From contig NZ_CZPZ01000036.1 of assembly GCF_001458775.1 (NCBI RefSeq), positions 62,001 to 126,000 of the forward strand: a stretch of 64,000 nt of DNA, written 5' to 3'. Positions within the stretch are counted from its first letter, which is position 1. Every line of letters begins with the position of its first letter. The translations under genes were made by a program, and so were the position numbers. This document shows positions 16,463 through 63,977 of the stretch, one piece after another. The DNA is from Candidatus Nitrospira nitrificans (GTDB taxonomy: Bacteria > Nitrospirota > Nitrospiria > Nitrospirales > Nitrospiraceae). The notes below the pieces were generated by a model. That model worked only from the letters and a program-made list of their open reading frames with translations. It did not search any database and was not told the origin of the DNA.

Positions 16463-18517
16463 GTGAGTGATTCAGCGATTATCACGTTTGCCCTCATTGC
16501 GGCCGCGGCTGGTATCGCCTATGGGCTGTACCTGGCGATGTGGGTGTTCAAGCTCGACGCCGGCAATGCGAAGATGCAGGAAATTGCGAAGGCAATCCAA
16601 GAAGGCGCCAGTGCCTACATGAATCGACAGTACAAAACCGTCGGCTATGTGGCCGCGGTGCTCTTCGTCATGCTCTGGGCCGCTGGGGCCGTTTCCGACA
16701 AGTTTGGTTTGCTGACGGCGGTCGGGTTCTTGGTCGGCGCGGGAGCTTCGTCGATTGCCGGCTATGTGGGGATGATCATTGCCGTGCGCGCCAACGTGCG
16801 GACAGCGCAAGCCGCGCACAATGGCATGAATGCCGCCTTGACCGTCGCGTTTCGAGGGGGGGCGGTGACCGGTCTGCTGCTGATCGGTCTGGGACTTTTG
16901 GCGATTACGACCTTCTATATGACCGCGCAATCGATAGCCGGCCAAGAGAAGGCGATCCACGCGCTTTTGAGTCTTGGGTTCGGAGGGAGCTTGATCTCGG
17001 TCTTCGCTCGTGTCGGCGGCGGCATCTACACCAAGGCTGCGGATGTGGGCGCAGATCTTGTCGGTAAAGTCGAAGCGGGCATTCCGGAAGACGACCCTCG
17101 CAACCCGGCGGTCATCGCCGATAACGTGGGCGACAACGTCGGTGACTGCGCCGGCATGGCGGCGGACCTGTTCGAGACCTACGCCGTGACGACGGTGGCG
17201 GCGATGGTGTTGGCGTTTACGATGTTTAAAGGAGCGACTGCTCCGATCCTGTATCCGTTGGTTTTAGGAGGCGTGACGATTTTCGCGACGATCATCGGGG
17301 TTCTCTTCGTGAAGGTGAGCCCGGGCGGGGAAGTCATGACGGCGCTCTACAAGGGGCTGTTCGTGGCCGGCGGGATCGCTGCCGTGGCATTTCTTCCGAT
17401 CACCCTCATGATCATGGGGGGGGTAGGGGGCGTCAGCGGTTTCAGTTACTACATCGCAGCATTGATGGGATTGGCGGTGACGCTGGCGCTTGTATTCATT
17501 ACCGATTATTACACGTCGAAGAACTATGAACCGGTGCAATATATCGCCAAAGCCAGTGAAACCGGCCATGCGACGAACATCATCGCGGGACTGGCGGTCG
17601 GCATGCAGGCGACGGCGGCGCCGGTGGTGGTGATCGCGGCGGCGATCCTGGCCAGCTTCTGGGTCTGCGGCGGCGCGGAGTCCGGCGGGTTATACGGCGT
17701 GGCGGTGGCGGCGGTCTCGATGCTGTCGATGGCGGGGATTGTCGTGGCGATCGATGCGTTCGGCCCAATCACGGACAATGCAGGCGGCATTGCCGAAATG
17801 TCGCATCTGGGCAAGGAAGTTCGGGACATCACCGATCCATTGGATGCGGTCGGCAATACGACCAAGGCGGTGACGAAAGGCTATGCGATTGGGTCAGCCG
17901 CCTTGGCGGCGGTGGTGTTGTTCGCGGAATATTCTCGTGAGGTCGCGGCGCACAATCCCGCGCTGGCGGCGTTCGACCTGTCCAACCCGAAAGTGTTGGT
18001 CGGCCTGTTTCTCGGCGGCATGTTGCCCTTCATCTTCGGCGCGCTTTGTATGAGGGCCGTGGGCGAAGCCGGCGGTTTGATCGTGGAAGAAGTGCGGCGG
18101 CAGTTCCGGACGATCAAGGGCATTATGGAAGGCACGGGGAAGCCGGAGTACGGCACCTGCGTTGACATCGTGACCCAGGCCGCGATTCAAAAGATGATGA
18201 TCCCGGGCTTGATCCCGGTGGCATCGCCGATCATTGTCGGCTTGGTGCTGGGCCCGCAAGCTCTCGGCGGCGTGTTGGTCGGCAGCATTGTGACCGGCCT
18301 GTTCGTCGCGATTTCAATGACGAGCGGCGGCGGGGCCTGGGACAATGCGAAGAAGTTTATCGAAGAGCAGGGATTGAAGGGCACCGACACGCATAAGGCG
18401 GCGGTGACCGGCGATACGGTCGGGGACCCGTACAAGGATACAGCGGGACCGGCGGTGAACCCGATGATCAAGGTCATCAATATCGTCGCATTGCTCATCG
18501 TGTCGTTGATCGTCTGA
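16463..18517 (+). CDS. hppA: membrane-bound proton-pumping pyrophosphatase, K+-independent type
   Basis: A 684-residue protein with about 16 membrane helices, the usual size for the family. It hydrolyses pyrophosphate and pumps protons across the inner membrane. The substrate-binding signature [20 protein letters not shown] and [19 protein letters not shown] is complete (about residues 190-235), and the C-terminal [18 protein letters not shown] repeats the metal-binding theme. The segment [10 protein letters not shown] has Lys where potassium-dependent enzymes have Ala, which places it in the K+-independent class. The GTG start at 16463 follows a strong AGGAGGA. A strong hairpin terminator follows at 18565. 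It recovers energy from PPi made in biosynthesis. Confidence 0.97.
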
Positions 18518-18564
18518 ACGAGTGCGGATGAGTGTCCGGTAACACAGGATCGAGTTGTATGATG

Positions 18565-18598
18565 AAGCGCCGTGTCCCGGCCGGGGCACGGCGCTTTT
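18565..18598 (+). terminator. rho-independent terminator after hppA
   Basis: A 16-bp stem (AAGCGCCGTGTCCCGG paired with CCGGGGCACGGCGCTT, one G-T wobble) ends in a short T run. It separates hppA from pup. Confidence 0.85.
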
Positions 18599-18614
18599 CG
18601 TTTCGCCTCGTGCC

Positions 18615-18644
18615 TTGACGGGTTTCGGTACCCTAGAGTATGGT
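18615..18644 (+). promoter_or_regulatory. candidate promoter of pup
   Basis: TTGACG (18615-18620), an 18-bp spacer, then TATGGT (18639-18644), lying between the hppA terminator and the pup start. It implies that pup has its own transcript with a leader of about 58 bases and a GGGAGGTG ribosome binding site. Confidence 0.4.
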
Positions 18645-18708
18645 GAGTTCATCAATGAGAGTTGCCGGCTGATCGCGAGAGTTTCCCTGGTCCACGGGAG
18701 GTGCTCGA

Positions 18709-18906
18709 ATGGAAAAGCAGGAACGGAAGCAAGAGCCGCGACGAGAACCGCAGGGCAAAGATGAAGTCAAAGCCAACCCGAAGGTGGTCGAGACCGGCAA
18801 AAAGCTGAAAGAGGATATCGACAAACTGGTCGATGAGATCGATGATGTGCTTGAAAAGAACGCTGAAGAATTCGTGAAGAATTATGTTCAAAAAGGAGGG
18901 CAATAG
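18709..18906 (+). CDS. pup: prokaryotic ubiquitin-like protein Pup
   Basis: A 65-residue, highly charged protein with a disordered Glu/Lys/Arg-rich N terminus and the conserved C-terminal helix and tail: LVDEIDDVLEKNAEEFVKNY followed by VQKGGQ. The core and the Gly-Gly-Gln end are diagnostic of Pup. The terminal Gln must be deamidated to Glu by Dop before PafA can link Pup to substrate lysines; the tagged proteins go to the 20S proteasome through the ARC/Mpa ATPase. The ATG at 18709 follows GGGAGGTG. It stands alone between hppA and recJ, about 41 kb from the ARC-dop pair, instead of next to dop as is usual in pup operons. Confidence 0.94.
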   Translation: MEKQERKQEPRREPQGKDEVKANPKVVETGKKLKEDIDKLVDEIDDVLEKNAEEFVKNYVQKGGQ

Positions 18907-19049
18907 CGCTCCCTCCAACTCTCCGTCGAGTCACCCTCCCATTTCCTTCACGTCCTTCGGTTTGACAAAGAAGAAGCTGCTTATTACAGTCTTCCTCGTT
19001 CTCCTGTAATCGAGAACATGCGTGGACCTAGACCATTAAGGAGATGGGG

Positions 19050-20747
19050 ATGAAGTCCAAGCTCTGGGTTTTCTCTCAAGTTGATCCCATCCAACGCGGC
19101 CTCTTATCAAAGGCCTTGTCAATTTCCTCGGCGACCGCCTCGTTGTTGCTCAATCGGGGCGTGATGAGCGTGGACCAGGCGACAGCCTGGATGTCTCCTC
19201 TCCAAACTCATGATCCGTTCTTGATTCCCGACATGGAACGGGCGGTCGACCGTCTGCATCAGGCCAGGCAACGTCGCGAAGTCGTCTGTTTTTACGGCGA
19301 TTACGATGTGGATGGCATGTCCGCCACAAGCATTTATCTGTCATTCTTTCGCGGGCTCGGCGCCGAAGTCCGTGCCTATGTTCCTCATCGTCTGCGTGAG
19401 GGATATGGACTGAACGAGAGTGCTGTTCGGACCTTGGCGAAGGAGGGCGTCTCTCTCTTAGTGACTTCCGATTGCGGGACCACGTCGCACCATGAAATCA
19501 GCCTCGCCAATCGACTGGGGATCGACGTGATCGTGACCGATCACCATCAAAGCGATATGGAGATGCCGGCTGCGTTGGCGGTGATGAATCCCCATCGGCC
19601 TGACGCTCGGTATCCGTTTCGCGGGCTCTGCTCCGGCGGCCTGGCGTACAAGGTGGCGCAGGCGTATGAGATGAAATACGGCTCCGGCTCGGTGCCGTTG
19701 GAGTCGCTCTTGGATTTGGTCGCGCTTGCCACGATCGCGGACGTGGTTCCGCTGCAAGACGAAAATCGACTCTTCGTTCGAGAAGGACTGGCCCATCTTT
19801 CGCGCGGCGCCCGCTGCGGCCTACGGGCTTTGAAGCAGGTTGCGGGCATTAGCCGTGAATGCACGGCGGAGACCATCGCGTTCAAACTCGGGCCTCGACT
19901 CAATGCCGCAGGGCGCTTGGATGAAGCGATCAAAGGGGTCAGACTTCTGACGACGGAGTCTGAAGGGGAAGCCCAAGAGTTGGCTGAAGAGCTTGAGCAG
20001 TTGAACCGAGCCCGCCGTGAGCTTGAGGCTGATATTTTGGAGCAAGCGGTAGCTCAGGCGGAGTCACGGGAGCTGCAGGGAGGGATCGTGTTGTACGCCC
20101 GAGGATGGCATCTCGGGGTCGTCGGTATCGTCGCGGCCCGCATCATGGAACGCTTTCATCGTCCGGCGGTCGTGATCGCCGTGAATGAAGACGGCATCGG
20201 GAAGGGATCGGCTCGGACTGTGCCGGGGTTCGACCTCTATCAAGCGTTGGCCGGTTGCCGAGATCTCCTCATGGCGTTCGGGGGCCATCCCAGCGCGGCG
20301 GGGGTCACGATCCAGGAGGGCCGGTTGCCGGAATTTGCCGAGCGCTTTTCCGCAACTGCGGAGGCGTGGATTCGGAATACCCACAGCGTTCCCATGCTGC
20401 ATCTGGATTCTGAACTGCGCTTGGCCGAGGTCACGCTCCAGCTGATTCGTGAAATCGGGACGCTCCATCCGTTCGGCGCGGGGAATCCCGAGCCGACGTT
20501 CGCCGTCCGAGGGCTGAACGTTCTCAATGCGCGCGTGGTCGGAGAGAAACATTTGAAGATGACCGTCCGGCAGGGTGGATCTCTGCCGTTTGATAGTATT
20601 GGATTTGGGATGAAATCTTTGGAAGATCATGGCTTGTCTCTGAAGACGCCCATTGACGTCGCCTTCACGCCGGAACTGAATCATTGGAACGGCCAGGATC
20701 GGATTCAGTTGCGTATCCGAGACATACGAGCGGCAGGGTGCGAATAG
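19050..20747 (+). CDS. recJ: single-stranded-DNA-specific exonuclease RecJ
   Basis: A 565-residue DHH-superfamily nuclease that degrades single-stranded DNA 5' to 3' in recombination and mismatch repair. The DHH phosphoesterase motifs are visible: FYGDYDVDGMSA (about residue 85), SDCGTTSHHE and VTDHHQ (about 166), and later the DHHA1 motif GGHPSAAGVTI. The OB-fold region follows to the C terminus. The ATG at 19050 is preferred over 19044 because AAGGAG lies seven bases upstream of it. It is followed three bases later by the relA/spoT gene, so the two are co-transcribed. Confidence 0.95.
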   Translation: MKSKLWVFSQVDPIQRGLLSKALSISSATASLLLNRGVMSVDQATAWMSPLQTHDPFLIPDMERAVDRLHQARQRREVVCFYGDYDVDGMSATSIYLSFFRGLGAEVRAYVPHRLREGYGLNESAVRTLAKEGVSLLVTSDCGTTSHHEISLANRLGIDVIVTDHHQSDMEMPAALAVMNPHRPDARYPFRGLCSGGLAYKVAQAYEMKYGSGSVPLESLLDLVALATIADVVPLQDENRLFVREGLAHLSRGARCGLRALKQVAGISRECTAETIAFKLGPRLNAAGRLDEAIKGVRLLTTESEGEAQELAEELEQLNRARRELEADILEQAVAQAESRELQGGIVLYARGWHLGVVGIVAARIMERFHRPAVVIAVNEDGIGKGSARTVPGFDLYQALAGCRDLLMAFGGHPSAAGVTIQEGRLPEFAERFSATAEAWIRNTHSVPMLHLDSELRLAEVTLQLIREIGTLHPFGAGNPEPTFAVRGLNVLNARVVGEKHLKMTVRQGGSLPFDSIGFGMKSLEDHGLSLKTPIDVAFTPELNHWNGQDRIQLRIRDIRAAGCE

Positions 20748-20750
20748 CCG

Positions 20751-22931
20751 ATGATGTATGAAACGGTGACGGATATCGATCAGTTGCTGGAGCGCCTGCA
20801 AGCCTATCAGCCCGACGCCGATCTCGGCATGGTGCGAAAGGCGTATGCGTTTTCAGCGAAGGCGCATGAAGGACAGACGCGTCGCTCCGGAGAACCCTAT
20901 GTGAAGCATCCCGTCGCCGTGGCCGGCGTCTTGACCTCGCTGAAAACCGACGTGACGGCGATCGTGGCGGGGCTTCTGCACGATACGCTGGAAGATACGG
21001 TGGCCACGGCGGATGAGCTTCAGCGGGAATTCGGCAAAGAAGTCGTCCATCTCGTCGACGGCGTGACGAAGATCGGGAAAATCACGTTTCGCAGTTCTGA
21101 GGAAAAACAGGCGGAGAACTTCCGCAAAATGGTGCTCTCGATGGCGGATGATATTCGCGTCGTGATCATCAAACTGGCGGATCGGCTCCATAATATGCGA
21201 ACGCTTGAGCACCTCAAGGAAAGCAAGCGGCTGGAAATCGCGCAAGAGACGTTGGAGATCTATGCGCCTTTGGCCAACCGTATCGGAATCGGATGGGTGA
21301 AGAACGAGCTTGAAGATTTGTGCCTGAAGCACCTCAAGCCGGATGCCTACGAAACCCTGCGCGTGTCCGTGGCGAAACGCGACGAAGATCGGCAACAGTA
21401 CATCCAGGAGGTGCAAGCTCTCGTTGAGAAGGCGCTCGCGGAGAACGGGTTGGCCGGAGCCGTGTACGGCAGGCCGAAACACCTGTACGGCATCTATCAA
21501 AAGATAAAGAAGCAGTCGATCTCGTTCGGGGAGGTCTACGATCTCACCGCCTTGCGGATCATTACCGATACGAAGATGAACTGTTACGCGCTGCTGGGGG
21601 TCATCCATTCGTTGTGGCGACCGCTGCCGGGCCGTTTCAAGGATTACATCGCGATCCCGAAATCGAACCTCTATCAATCCCTCCATACGACCGTGGTCGG
21701 GCCGAAGGGCGAGCACGTCGAATTCCAGATCCGCACGGAAGAAATGCACCGCGTGGCCGAGTACGGAATCGCGGCGCATTGGAAGTATAAAGAACAAGGG
21801 AAGGTGGACGATAAAGACAGCAAGGCCTTCGGATGGCTGAGACAGTTCATCGAATGGCAGAAGGATCTGCCGGATAATCGTCAATTCATGGATTCCGTGA
21901 AACTCGAGTTGTTTCACGACGTGGTCTATGTCTTTACCCCGAAGGGAATCGTCAAAGAGCTGCCGAAAGGCGCCACGCCGGTAGATTTTGCGTATGCCAT
22001 TCACACGGAAGTCGGTGATCATTGCGTCGGCGCAAAGGTCAATGGGAAGATCGTTCCGCTGAGGCATGAGGTGACGAGCGGGGACACCATCGAAATTCTG
22101 ACGTCCTCCAACCAGACTCCGCACCGGGATTGGCTCAAGTTCGTGCGGACCTCACGGGCCAAAACCAAGATTAAGCATTGGATCAAGATAGAGGAACAGA
22201 AGCGGAGCCTGGAAATCGGTTGGCGCTTGCTCGAAGCCGAGATTCGTCGGCATGGGTTGCCCCCCTCGCAGGTCTTCAAGTCGGATGCGCTGCTCGATAT
22301 CGCCAAACAGGAGGGCTACGCCACGGTTGACGAGTTGGCCGCGGCGGTGGGATTCGGCCACGTCGCGACAGCTCAAGTCGTCGGACGATTGGTGGCTCCG
22401 ACATCGGCGGGAACTTCCGTTCAACCCGACCCGGTCAGCGTTCCCAAAGTCGTCGGTGCGAGAGGGGCGGAGCCGGGCGTTCAAGTCAAGGGTGGTCGCG
22501 ATCTATTGATGCAACTGTCGCGATGCTGCAACCCCGTTCCCGGCGACAAGATCTTGGGGTACATCACGCGCGGAAGAGGCCTCACGATCCATTCAGTCGA
22601 TTGTCCGAATCTCGAAGCCTTGGACTACGATCGAGAACGTCTGGTGGACGTGGAGTGGGATACCGCAACGTCCAGTCAACACGCGGTCAAAATCGCGGTC
22701 ATCGCGGAGGATAAGACGGGAGTGCTGGCGAATGTGTCATCGGCTATCGCTGAATGTGAGGCGAATATCAGTCGCGCCGAGATTATCACCAGAGAAGATC
22801 GGAAGGCCGAGTTGGATTTCGTGGTCGAGATTGCCGACACGAGTCATCTCAACCGAGTGCTGAAAGCCGTTGAACGGGTGAAGGGTGTCATTACGGCCAG
22901 GCGACTGAGGTCTTGGCGCGAAAAATCATGA
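20751..22931 (+). CDS. relA: bifunctional (p)ppGpp synthetase/hydrolase (RelA/SpoT homologue)
   Basis: A 726-residue protein with the full long-RSH order: HD hydrolase domain (about 30-170, with HP and HDTLEDT at 77-83), synthetase domain (about 220-340, with GRPKHLYGIYQKI, RFKDYIAIPKSNLYQSLHT and the EFQIRTEEMH segment), TGS domain (about 390-450, FTPKGIVKELPKGATPVDFA), a helical region with the CCNPVPGD zinc-finger-like motif, and a C-terminal ACT domain. Intact HD and RFKD motifs indicate both hydrolysis and synthesis, with the stringent response in one enzyme. It starts three bases after the recJ stop codon. Confidence 0.96.
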   Translation: MMYETVTDIDQLLERLQAYQPDADLGMVRKAYAFSAKAHEGQTRRSGEPYVKHPVAVAGVLTSLKTDVTAIVAGLLHDTLEDTVATADELQREFGKEVVHLVDGVTKIGKITFRSSEEKQAENFRKMVLSMADDIRVVIIKLADRLHNMRTLEHLKESKRLEIAQETLEIYAPLANRIGIGWVKNELEDLCLKHLKPDAYETLRVSVAKRDEDRQQYIQEVQALVEKALAENGLAGAVYGRPKHLYGIYQKIKKQSISFGEVYDLTALRIITDTKMNCYALLGVIHSLWRPLPGRFKDYIAIPKSNLYQSLHTTVVGPKGEHVEFQIRTEEMHRVAEYGIAAHWKYKEQGKVDDKDSKAFGWLRQFIEWQKDLPDNRQFMDSVKLELFHDVVYVFTPKGIVKELPKGATPVDFAYAIHTEVGDHCVGAKVNGKIVPLRHEVTSGDTIEILTSSNQTPHRDWLKFVRTSRAKTKIKHWIKIEEQKRSLEIGWRLLEAEIRRHGLPPSQVFKSDALLDIAKQEGYATVDELAAAVGFGHVATAQVVGRLVAPTSAGTSVQPDPVSVPKVVGARGAEPGVQVKGGRDLLMQLSRCCNPVPGDKILGYITRGRGLTIHSVDCPNLEALDYDRERLVDVEWDTATSSQHAVKIAVIAEDKTGVLANVSSAIAECEANISRAEIITREDRKAELDFVVEIADTSHLNRVLKAVERVKGVITARRLRSWREKS

Positions 22932-60232: not shown

Positions 60233-60370
60233 GATGCCATGGCACGGCGAGGACGAGTCTCGCGCGAGATCGTCCGTTGCTGTTGACCACCCCTAGGTCG
60301 GGTGTTAGAATCCGACCACAAGCTCATTCACGCACTCAGTGGCGTTGTGCGCGATGCCTGTTGTGGTGAA

Positions 60371-62140
60371 ATGACGTCTAGCAAAGGTCAGCCCGGTCGA
60401 CTCCGGTCCCTCCGAGATTCCGTTAAGAAGATGACGAAGCGGTTGTCCGAGGGGAATGAGGAGATGATTCACAAGAACGACGAACATGCGCGCGAGCTCG
60501 ACAAGCTTCGCGTTCAGATTCAGTCGATGGAAGAAGAAATCCGTCGGCTCTATCAGTCCCGCCATCAACTCGATCAGGCGACCAAACACAACGAAAAACT
60601 TGTGGCGACGCTGCAGGATGCGAAAGCTCAGATCGAGGCGCTGCGGGCCGAGGTCGAGAAGCTGACAGCGCCTCCGTCGGCCTACGCGATCTTCTCAAGC
60701 CTGAACGAGGATGGAACGGGCAACGTGTATGTGTCGGGACGAAAAATGAAGGTCAGTCTTCATCCCTCGATTAAGCGCGACGAGTTAGGGAAGGGGCGGG
60801 AAGTTGTTCTAAATGAAGCGCTCAACGTGATCGAGGTGAAGGGGTTCGACAGCCAAGGAGAGGTCGTTCGGCTCAAAGACGTGTTGGAGGGAGGACGGGC
60901 CTTGGTCACCCTGCATTTTGACGAAGAGAAGGTGGCTGAGCTCGGCGATCCATTGCTCGCTGAACGACTGAGTGTGGGGGACCATCTCCTCTATGATCCC
61001 CGTTCCGGGTATGTCATCGAGAAGTTGCCGAAGTCCGAAGCGGAAGAGCTGGTGCTGGAAGAAGTTCCGGATGTCGACTATGAGCATATCGGTGGTCTTC
61101 AGAAGGAATTGGAACAGGTCCGTGACGCGGTCGAACTTCCGTTCCTGCATCCCCACGTATTCTCCGAATACAAGCTCAGCGCGCCGAAAGGAGTGCTGCT
61201 CTATGGCCCACCCGGTTGCGGGAAGACGCTGATCGCCAAAGCCGTCGCCAATTCAATCGCGAAGAAATTAGGCCATCGGGCAGGAAAGGAAATACGGAGC
61301 TACTTTCTTCATGTGAAGGGTCCTGAATTGCTCAATAAGTATGTCGGGGAGTCGGAGCGTCAGGTGCGTGAAGTCTTTAAGAAGGCGAAGGAACGGGCCG
61401 ATGACGGCCATCCGGTGATCGTCTTTTTTGATGAGATGGATGCGCTCTTCAGGACTCGTGGGACCGGTATATCCTCGGATATCGAATCGACCATTGTCCC
61501 GCAGTTTCTCTCTGAGATCGACGGGGTCGAGCGGTTGCGCAACGTCATCGTCATCGGGGCCAGCAACCGCCAGGATTTGATCGATCCGGCCGTGCTTCGC
61601 GCCGGACGATTGGACGTCAAAGTCAAAGTGGGACGACCGGATGCCACCGCTGCCAAGGACATTTTCTCGAAGTACATCTCAACCGATCTCCCCTTTGCCG
61701 CTGAGGACCTGGAACGACACGGAGGCGATCGACAGGCGCTCGTGGATCGATTGACGGCGTTGACGGTCGAGACGATGTACGCAGCCAGTGAGGAAAACAA
61801 GTTCATCGAAGTCACCTACGCCAACGGCGAAAAGGAAGTCCTGTACTTCAAGGACTTCGCCAGCGGAGCTTTGATCGAAGGCATCGTCTCGCGCGCCAAA
61901 AAGTTTGCCGTGAAGCGCGTGATCGCGCAAGAAGGCACCGGCCTGCGCTCGGACGACTTGATCCGCGCCATCCGTGAGGAGTTCAAGGAACACGAAGATC
62001 TCCCCAATACGACCAATCCGGACGATTGGGCAAAAGTCGCCGGAAAGAAGGGCGAGAAAATCATCCATCTCCGGACCATCAGCGGCGGACCTGCCGAACA
62101 TCGGCAGATTGAAACCGTCAATACCGGTCACTATCTCTAG
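60371..62140 (+). CDS. arc: proteasome-activating ATPase ARC/Mpa
   Basis: A 589-residue AAA ATPase that unfolds pupylated proteins and feeds them to the 20S proteasome. It has an N-terminal coiled coil that captures Pup (about residues 20-90: LDKLRVQIQSMEEEIRRLYQ), an OB-fold interdomain (about 100-230) and one AAA module with Walker A GPPGCGKT, Walker B VIVFFDEMD and arginine finger region RAGRLDVKV. The C-terminal end, TGHYL, has the penultimate Tyr needed to dock on the proteasome ring. An in-frame GTG at 60302 is less likely than the ATG at 60371. It is eight bases upstream of dop. Confidence 0.95.
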   Translation: MTSSKGQPGRLRSLRDSVKKMTKRLSEGNEEMIHKNDEHARELDKLRVQIQSMEEEIRRLYQSRHQLDQATKHNEKLVATLQDAKAQIEALRAEVEKLTAPPSAYAIFSSLNEDGTGNVYVSGRKMKVSLHPSIKRDELGKGREVVLNEALNVIEVKGFDSQGEVVRLKDVLEGGRALVTLHFDEEKVAELGDPLLAERLSVGDHLLYDPRSGYVIEKLPKSEAEELVLEEVPDVDYEHIGGLQKELEQVRDAVELPFLHPHVFSEYKLSAPKGVLLYGPPGCGKTLIAKAVANSIAKKLGHRAGKEIRSYFLHVKGPELLNKYVGESERQVREVFKKAKERADDGHPVIVFFDEMDALFRTRGTGISSDIESTIVPQFLSEIDGVERLRNVIVIGASNRQDLIDPAVLRAGRLDVKVKVGRPDATAAKDIFSKYISTDLPFAAEDLERHGGDRQALVDRLTALTVETMYAASEENKFIEVTYANGEKEVLYFKDFASGALIEGIVSRAKKFAVKRVIAQEGTGLRSDDLIRAIREEFKEHEDLPNTTNPDDWAKVAGKKGEKIIHLRTISGGPAEHRQIETVNTGHYL

Positions 62141-62147
62141 CAATCTT

Positions 62148-63647
62148 ATGCCTGACCATACCTCCACGAATCGCTTGCGTGTGCTTGGCACTGAAACCGA
62201 GTTCGGCATCGCGGCAAAAGATCCGTCCGCGATGGACCCTGTGTCAGGCTCCTTCGCCGTCATCGGACAGTATCCAGGATTGCCGGCTCCGGCGGCGCTG
62301 TGGGATTACGAGCACGAAAATCCACTCGTGGATGCCCGAGGTTTTGAAGTCGAAGGCGAGCGAGAACGCCCCAATCCTGACTACAACCGGCAGTTGAACA
62401 AGGTGCTGGCGAACGGCGGACGGCTCTATGTCGATGGAGCTCATCCGGAATACTCGACGCCGGAGTGTTCAAATGCCCGGGAGGTGGTGGCATTCGAACG
62501 AGTCGGAGAACGTATTCTCGCCCAATGCCTTCAGGAATTGGCTCGGGTGAGAGGAAGCGAACAGTACATCCTCTACAAGAACAATTCCGACGGCAAGGGC
62601 AACAGTTACGGATACCATGAAAATTATTTGGTCTCGAGAGCCGTGCCGTTCGACCGGATCGTTCGGGTGCTGACGCCGTTTTTTGTCACACGACCGATCT
62701 TTGCCGGAGCCGGAAAAGTTGGGGCTGAAAATCAGACCAGCCCGGCGGAATATCAAATCTCGCAGCGCGCCGACTTTTTTGAATGTCTCATGGACCTCAA
62801 TACGATGGTCAAACGGCCGATCGTCAATACGCGGGACGAACCGCATGCCGATGCGGCGAGGTTTCGGAGGCTCCATGTCATCACGGGCGATGCCAATATG
62901 GCGGAACTCTCCACCTATTTGAAGGTGGGAACGTTGGACATTGTCTTGGACTTGCTGGAATCAGGAGCCGATCTGCCACAGCTTGAACTGGACGAGCCGG
63001 TTCGCGTGTTCAAGCAGGTGTCGCGCGACCTGGAGGTGAAGGAAACCCTGAAACTTACCGGTGGAAGGCCCACCACGGCTCTTGCCGTCCAGCGGGCGTA
63101 CCTGAGCGCCGCCAAGACTTTTTATGCCTCGCAGGCTCACAGCCCGACCACTCAGGATGTATTGCGTCGTTGGGAGGATGTCCTAAACCAGCTCGATCGC
63201 GATCCGCGGCTGTTGGTGAACGCATTGGATTGGGTCGCCAAGCGGCATATGATCGAGTCCTACATGGAGCGTAAAGGCGTCGGATGGGATGATCCCCGAA
63301 TGAAGCTGATGGATCTCCAGTACCATGATGTTCGTCCGGACAAGGGATTGTTTTATACCCTGGAACGCAGCCGCCTCATCGAACGGATCGTTGAGGAAGA
63401 AGAGATTCAGCGCGCTGAATTGCACCCTCCGACCGGCACAAGGGCCTACTTCCGTGGGCGCTGTGTCAGTAAGTTTTCAAAGGCGCTGTATGGGGCCAGT
63501 TGGACCTCGGTGCTGTTCGACGTCGGCAATACGACGATCAAAAAAGTGCCGCTGATGGATCCTCATCGAGGGACGCAGGCATTGACGCAGGAGTTGCTGG
63601 ACACAACCGATTCGGTCGATGCCCTGATCGAAAAGCTCAAGGTGTGA
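62148..63647 (+). CDS. dop: Pup deamidase/depupylase Dop
   Basis: A 499-residue enzyme of the Dop/PafA family (carboxylate-amine ligase fold). It converts the C-terminal Gln of Pup to Glu and removes Pup from substrates. Diagnostic parts: RVLGTETEFGIAAKDP with the conserved Glu near residues 16-18, then the Dop-type insertion before WDYEHENPLVDARGF, LYVDGAHPEYSTPECSN and NNSDGKGNSYGYHENY. The insertion after the first motif separates it from PafA. The ATG at 62148 follows the arc stop by seven bases. The adjacent proteasome and pafA genes lie beyond the window, if present. Confidence 0.94.
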   Translation: MPDHTSTNRLRVLGTETEFGIAAKDPSAMDPVSGSFAVIGQYPGLPAPAALWDYEHENPLVDARGFEVEGERERPNPDYNRQLNKVLANGGRLYVDGAHPEYSTPECSNAREVVAFERVGERILAQCLQELARVRGSEQYILYKNNSDGKGNSYGYHENYLVSRAVPFDRIVRVLTPFFVTRPIFAGAGKVGAENQTSPAEYQISQRADFFECLMDLNTMVKRPIVNTRDEPHADAARFRRLHVITGDANMAELSTYLKVGTLDIVLDLLESGADLPQLELDEPVRVFKQVSRDLEVKETLKLTGGRPTTALAVQRAYLSAAKTFYASQAHSPTTQDVLRRWEDVLNQLDRDPRLLVNALDWVAKRHMIESYMERKGVGWDDPRMKLMDLQYHDVRPDKGLFYTLERSRLIERIVEEEEIQRAELHPPTGTRAYFRGRCVSKFSKALYGASWTSVLFDVGNTTIKKVPLMDPHRGTQALTQELLDTTDSVDALIEKLKV

Positions 63648-63731
63648 CGAAATGGTGATTCTAAGAAACTACGGAAAAACCCAGTTCATGCCAAAAATAC
63701 GGCCGGCAGTTTCATTCGAGGCTAATACCAG

Positions 63732-63968
63732 AATAACTTCAGTATGCTCAAAAGGGCTGCTGTTCTCACCCGCCCCGCCCCGGCGCGTCCGCTTCGCCCG
63801 CTCAGCGAGGCGAGCTCGCCTCACGCCTGCGTCGACGCTCGGCGCGGCGAAGCCGAGGGCAAAGACGCACCTCTCCGCAGGCAAGGCCGCTGAGCGACGC
63901 GACTTGCCTCACGAAGCTGCTTCGGCAAGGCGGGGAAGGCTGCAGGCGGACTTTTTCAGCATCCCGCT
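63732..63968. repeat. about 235-bp terminal-inverted-repeat element (copy 2)
   Basis: The left end ATGCTCAAAAGGGCTGCTG and the reverse complement of the right end, ATGCTGAAAAAGTCCGCCTG, form imperfect inverted repeats, with palindromic G+C-rich sequence between (for example GCGAGGCGAGCTCGCCTC near 63804-63822). No plausible protein is encoded; an open frame through it has a low-complexity Arg/Ala translation. Together with 3379-3480 it defines a non-coding repeat family. It sits directly behind dop, at the place where pup is expected. Confidence 0.65.
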
Positions 63969-63977
63969 AAGACCACG

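Follow-up and report, generated by a model that had tools for sequence, protein, structure and literature searches.

Where does the tag of a Pup-proteasome system come from when its gene is not in the proteasome cluster? Published papers describe pup as invariably adjacent to a gene of the PafA family (PMC2588565), and place it upstream of prcB or, where the proteasome is missing, before pafA (PMC3511204). In the DNA analysed here, a stretch of 64,000 nucleotides referred to as the window (bases 62001-126000 of contig C36; genome of 4.12 Mb in 36 contigs), a candidate pup stands between hppA and recJ. The genes for its deamidase and ATPase are about 41 kb away, and this order departs from the placement in both papers. 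The questions are thus whether this is a genuine Pup, when it came to its present site, how it is expressed, and which proteasome it serves. The features discussed below are collected in Table 1.

Table 1. Features of the pup site, the system 1 cluster and the second proteasome cluster; positions are those of the window unless a locus is named.
Feature	Position	Strand	Remarks
hppA (membrane pyrophosphatase)	16463..18517	+	upstream neighbour, kept in relatives
Terminator-like hairpin 3' of hppA	18564..18601	+	15 pairs, then T-rich tail
Putative pup promoter TTGACG-N18-TATGGT	18615..18644	+	conserved 5' of pup across the genus and in part of the family
Ribosome-binding site GGGAGGTG	18696..18703	+	directly upstream of the pup ATG; alignment of relatives
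pup	18709..18906	+	65 aa, C-terminal GGQ; basis PF05639, TIGR03687, single genome match
recJ promoter-like site	18962-18990		upstream of recJ
recJ	19044..20747	+	downstream neighbour, kept in relatives
spoT	20751-22931		next after recJ, kept in relatives
arc1 operon promoter-like site TTGACC-N17-TAGAAT	60283..60311	+	separate from the pup promoter
arc1 (mpa), proteasomal ATPase	60371..62140	+	TIGR03689 735 bits; C-terminal GHYL
dop1, depupylase/deamidase	62148..63647	+	TIGR03688 557 bits, cut-off 492; start chosen by homology
Dispersed repeat	63648..63977	.	between dop1 and prcB1; 330 bp; 44 family matches in genome
arc2-dop2-ubact-prcB2-prcA2-pafA2	L035:6389-13108 (contig C32, same genome)		complete second proteasome cluster

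Identity of the pup gene and its partner cluster

The open reading frame starts with ATG, contains an internal LVDEIDDVLEKNAEEF and ends in KGGQ. Its 65 residues and its terminus agree with those of Pup proteins, which have about 60-70 residues and a Gly-Gly-Gln or Gly-Gly-Glu end. The first-pass annotation had recognised a Pup core and a GGQ end from the letters alone, and the family models bear this out: the Pfam model for Pup (PF05639) matches at 78.1 bits with a cut-off of 27, and the NCBIfam model TIGR03687 at 62.3 bits with a cut-off of 41.45. The UBact model PF20513 does not match this open reading frame, which is recognised as Pup alone. A search of the whole genome, 99.77% complete, with PF05639 found no second Pup. 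The gene is a genuine Pup and is present in a single copy; of the two possibilities raised earlier, a moved gene or an additional one, only the former stands.

The cognate enzymes PafA1, Dop1 and Arc1 each score above their equivalog cut-offs. They are encoded in an arc1-dop1-prcB1-prcA1-pafA1 cluster (system 1) that continues beyond the window edge, with prcB1, prcA1 and pafA1 outside the window. It had been noted that arc and dop are followed by a repeat and not by pup, and a second canonical pup just past the edge had been named as an observation against the relocation; prcB1-prcA1-pafA1 were found there instead, and no pup. The interval between dop1 and prcB1 does not hold the gene either, and a 109-aa open reading frame in it has no family match, so no Pup is hidden there. 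Thus the pup between hppA and recJ touches neither dop, prcB nor a PafA-family gene, the neighbours that mark a standard locus. In its parts the system resembles the actinobacterial one (in Mycobacterium mpa, dop-pup-prcB-prcA and pafA), with Pup, Dop, PafA, Arc/Mpa, PrcA and PrcB all of recognised families and an Arc/Mpa tail of the GHYL/GQYL type; many of the Arc1 homologues examined end in GHYL and most others in GQYL. Unlike the actinobacterial system, it has pup far from dop and apparently under a promoter of its own.

The last codon (18901-18903) is CAA for Gln and differs by one base from the GAA for Glu of the closest relatives. Only eight of the 107 distinct pups that lie outside a dop cluster end in GGQ, at points scattered among the relatives, and the other 99 have GGE. 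Dop is known to deamidate PupQ, a reaction assayed in PMC7947786, and because of this a change from GGE to GGQ should be tolerable wherever Dop1 is retained; a base error could also lie behind the CAA codon. Two other variants with internal duplications were seen: KVVEAGKKL is repeated in the Pup of G005 (L141), and the core of that of G180 (L142) is interrupted by an extra ENA-containing stretch.

Gene order and expression signals at the pup site

The neighbours of pup were read in 108 genomes by tblastn with the proteins of the window. Four families, f1 to f4, belong to one order, presumably the Nitrospirales to judge from the names of relatives (the named Pup matches are Nitrospira sp.), and in all 84 genomes examined from them pup lies at the hppA/recJ/spoT site. 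The visible flanks are hppA and recJ in 66 genomes, hppA and spoT in three, only recJ in nine and only spoT in five; in the remaining one, pup stands with hppA at a contig end. The comparison of gene order across Nitrospirota that the first-pass annotation had proposed shows the standard dop-pup-prcB arrangement in each of the 24 genomes examined from elsewhere in the phylum (10 from other orders of the class and 14 from other classes). The system of the order has its nearest relatives in the dop-prc clusters of these genomes, which consist of orthologous genes and differ in the place of pup.

The Dop tree places the Dop1 proteins of the order in one clade (100/98), which is nested within lineages that have the standard gene order. 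Where recJ was found in sister orders, it is adjacent to spoT and hppA is not upstream, so both hppA and pup came to this site. These gene orders would most simply be read as a single relocation of pup in the stem lineage of the order. Among close Pups of other phyla, nearly all occupy the standard place. On two NC10/Methylomirabilota contigs (L208 and L209) and one Rokubacteria contig (L214), neither dop nor prc genes were seen near pup, and these are possibly independent relocations; on L208 an arc-like gene follows shortly downstream of pup. Three genomes call for comment. G001 has two pups at contig ends with different flanks and a bin contamination of 4%, which we read as mixed strains. 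G009 is without pup, probably because its recJ lies at a contig edge. Neither pup nor recJ was found in G182, where all four PafA/Dop enzymes are present, and the absence of pup is read as an assembly gap.

The candidate promoter and the ribosome-binding site that had been pointed out in the hppA-recJ interval both recur in relatives. In the alignment, TTGACGG and the second hexamer are common while the bases around both vary, and GGAGGTGCTC within the ribosome-binding site is almost unchanged. The promoter motif precedes 57 of the 106 pups that lie outside a dop cluster, and these 57 come almost entirely from the genus and its close family; among shuffled sequences it occurs in 0.09%. It matches at a single place in the window, where 0.01 matches are expected, and at four in the genome. 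It is this conservation in relatives that lifts the promoter-like motif beyond chance. In this form it was not seen in families f2 to f4, which would therefore use other signals or read-through. The fold of positions 18556-18606, around the hairpin behind hppA, has a z-score of -5.4, and this terminator apparently insulates pup from hppA. No Rfam match to a known RNA element was found around pup. These signals suggest that pup is transcribed independently, from a promoter of its own.

The UBact cluster and alternative readings

The genome encodes four PafA/Dop proteins matching PF03136, not two, and the additional pair belongs to the second cluster, which stands directly after a gene for an HtrA-like protease. 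A 64-residue open reading frame that lies there between dop2 and prcB2 scores 75.1 bits with PF20513 and 75.9 bits with NF033388 and is UBact, a tag reported in 2017 according to a citation in PMC12751074. The two co-resident systems are alike in having a small C-terminally conjugated tag, PafA/Dop-type enzymes and a 20S proteasome. The UBact system differs in that its tag is of another family, ends in RTGE and is encoded within its own cluster, with a start codon that overlaps the dop2 stop. The tail of Arc2 (L035:8062-8122) is NQII, and two other complete Arc2 tails are HSII and YPII, as against GHYL or GQYL in Arc1, hence Arc2 may dock on its proteasome differently. Dop1, PafA1, Dop2 and PafA2 form one clade each, although the long PafA2 branch makes the depth of the split between the systems uncertain. 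Among 296 sampled genomes of the phylum, Pup is present in 140 and UBact in 103, and the genomes with UBact also have Pup, except G182, G308 and G057.

The exceptions bear on the partner of the relocated pup. G308 has the UBact-type enzyme pair alone and an intact hppA-recJ site without pup, which is a clean secondary loss of pup together with dop1 and pafA1. It is the one clear case of such co-loss within the order, and G057, from another class, agrees with it in having UBact, only the second enzyme pair and no pup. Conversely, eight checked genomes without UBact have kept pup and the system 1 enzymes. This pattern indicates that the relocated pup pairs with system 1. One could imagine a single tag pool for two proteasomes, with Pup serving the UBact-type enzymes as well, given that both enzyme sets are members of the PafA/Dop family in the same cell. 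We regard this as quite improbable, because every checked locus of the second cluster contains a tag gene of its own, placed between dop2 and prcB2, the four enzyme groups fall into separate clades, and presence and absence couple Pup with the first set and UBact with the second.

Two other readings concern the site itself. The repeat behind dop1 occupies the place of pup in the standard order, and it had been taken to mark the breakpoint of a recent rearrangement in which pup moved in this strain alone. That idea deserves practically no weight and is already refuted by the relatives. An identical location in relatives had been named as the observation that would speak for an ancestral site, and it is largely what was found, the site being common to the whole order. 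Moreover, in the closest relatives (L092, L099) dop1 and prcB1 are separated by about 27 bp that hold neither the repeat nor a pup, and the repeat belongs to a dispersed family, so it was rejected as the breakpoint; it is a later insertion into a gap already without pup. Unusually long dop1-prcB1 gaps also occur in a few relatives (e.g., L095 and L106). The other reading, in which pup belongs to an hppA-pup-recJ-spoT operon and is expressed together with its neighbours and not alone, is the less easily dismissed of the two, but we still consider it unlikely. The genes share a strand and have long been neighbours, and the gap between pup and recJ is only 10-27 bp in family f4. Against this stand the hairpin between hppA and pup, the conserved pup promoter, the promoter-like site upstream of recJ, and several genomes of family f3 in which hppA or recJ later disappeared from the site and pup was kept.

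Proposed pathway and implications

We therefore favour, with a probability of roughly 85%, the reading that the gene is the single functional Pup of a system that is standard in other respects, moved once in an ancestor and maintained as a stand-alone unit at the hppA-recJ-spoT site. Under this reading, a single event in the ancestor of the order would have taken pup out of the dop-prcB interval; the gene would have settled together with hppA upstream of recJ-spoT and been kept since as a separate transcription unit. Following known Pup biochemistry, Pup with the GGQ end would be made from the hppA-recJ locus and deamidated by Dop1 to GGE, after which PafA1 would ligate it to lysines of target proteins. 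Arc1 with its GHYL tail would feed the tagged proteins into the PrcA1/PrcB1 chamber, and Dop1 could take the tag off again.

With expression signals of its own, pup can be transcribed independently of the proteasome operon. An uncoupled Pup dosage had been predicted in case this is the only copy; the single copy and the separate signals hold, and the dosage could be uncoupled. The anatomy of the locus suggests that since the move the supply of the tag could be set apart from that of the enzymes. The relocated promoter adjoins genes of a pyrophosphatase and of (p)ppGpp metabolism. We tentatively hypothesize, and consider it rather less probable than not, that the Pup supply of the order is an independently regulated input to the proteasome, in which the relocated promoter sets the level of tagging and the UBact tag is locked to its operon. 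If so, one cell runs one operon-coupled and one uncoupled tagging system.

The arrangement is stable and the system itself of a known kind. Its relocation is apparently undescribed; no description of a relocated pup was found in the open-access literature, a search outside which most subscription papers lie. Annotation based on gene neighbourhood would miss a pup of 65 codons at this site and could suggest a system without a tag. The published rule of a constant PafA-family neighbour for pup is broken in an ecologically major group, Nitrospira and its relatives. Many of these genomes have two complete tagging-proteasome systems with tag genes arranged in opposite ways, which offers a natural test of whether it matters that a tag and its enzymes share one operon.
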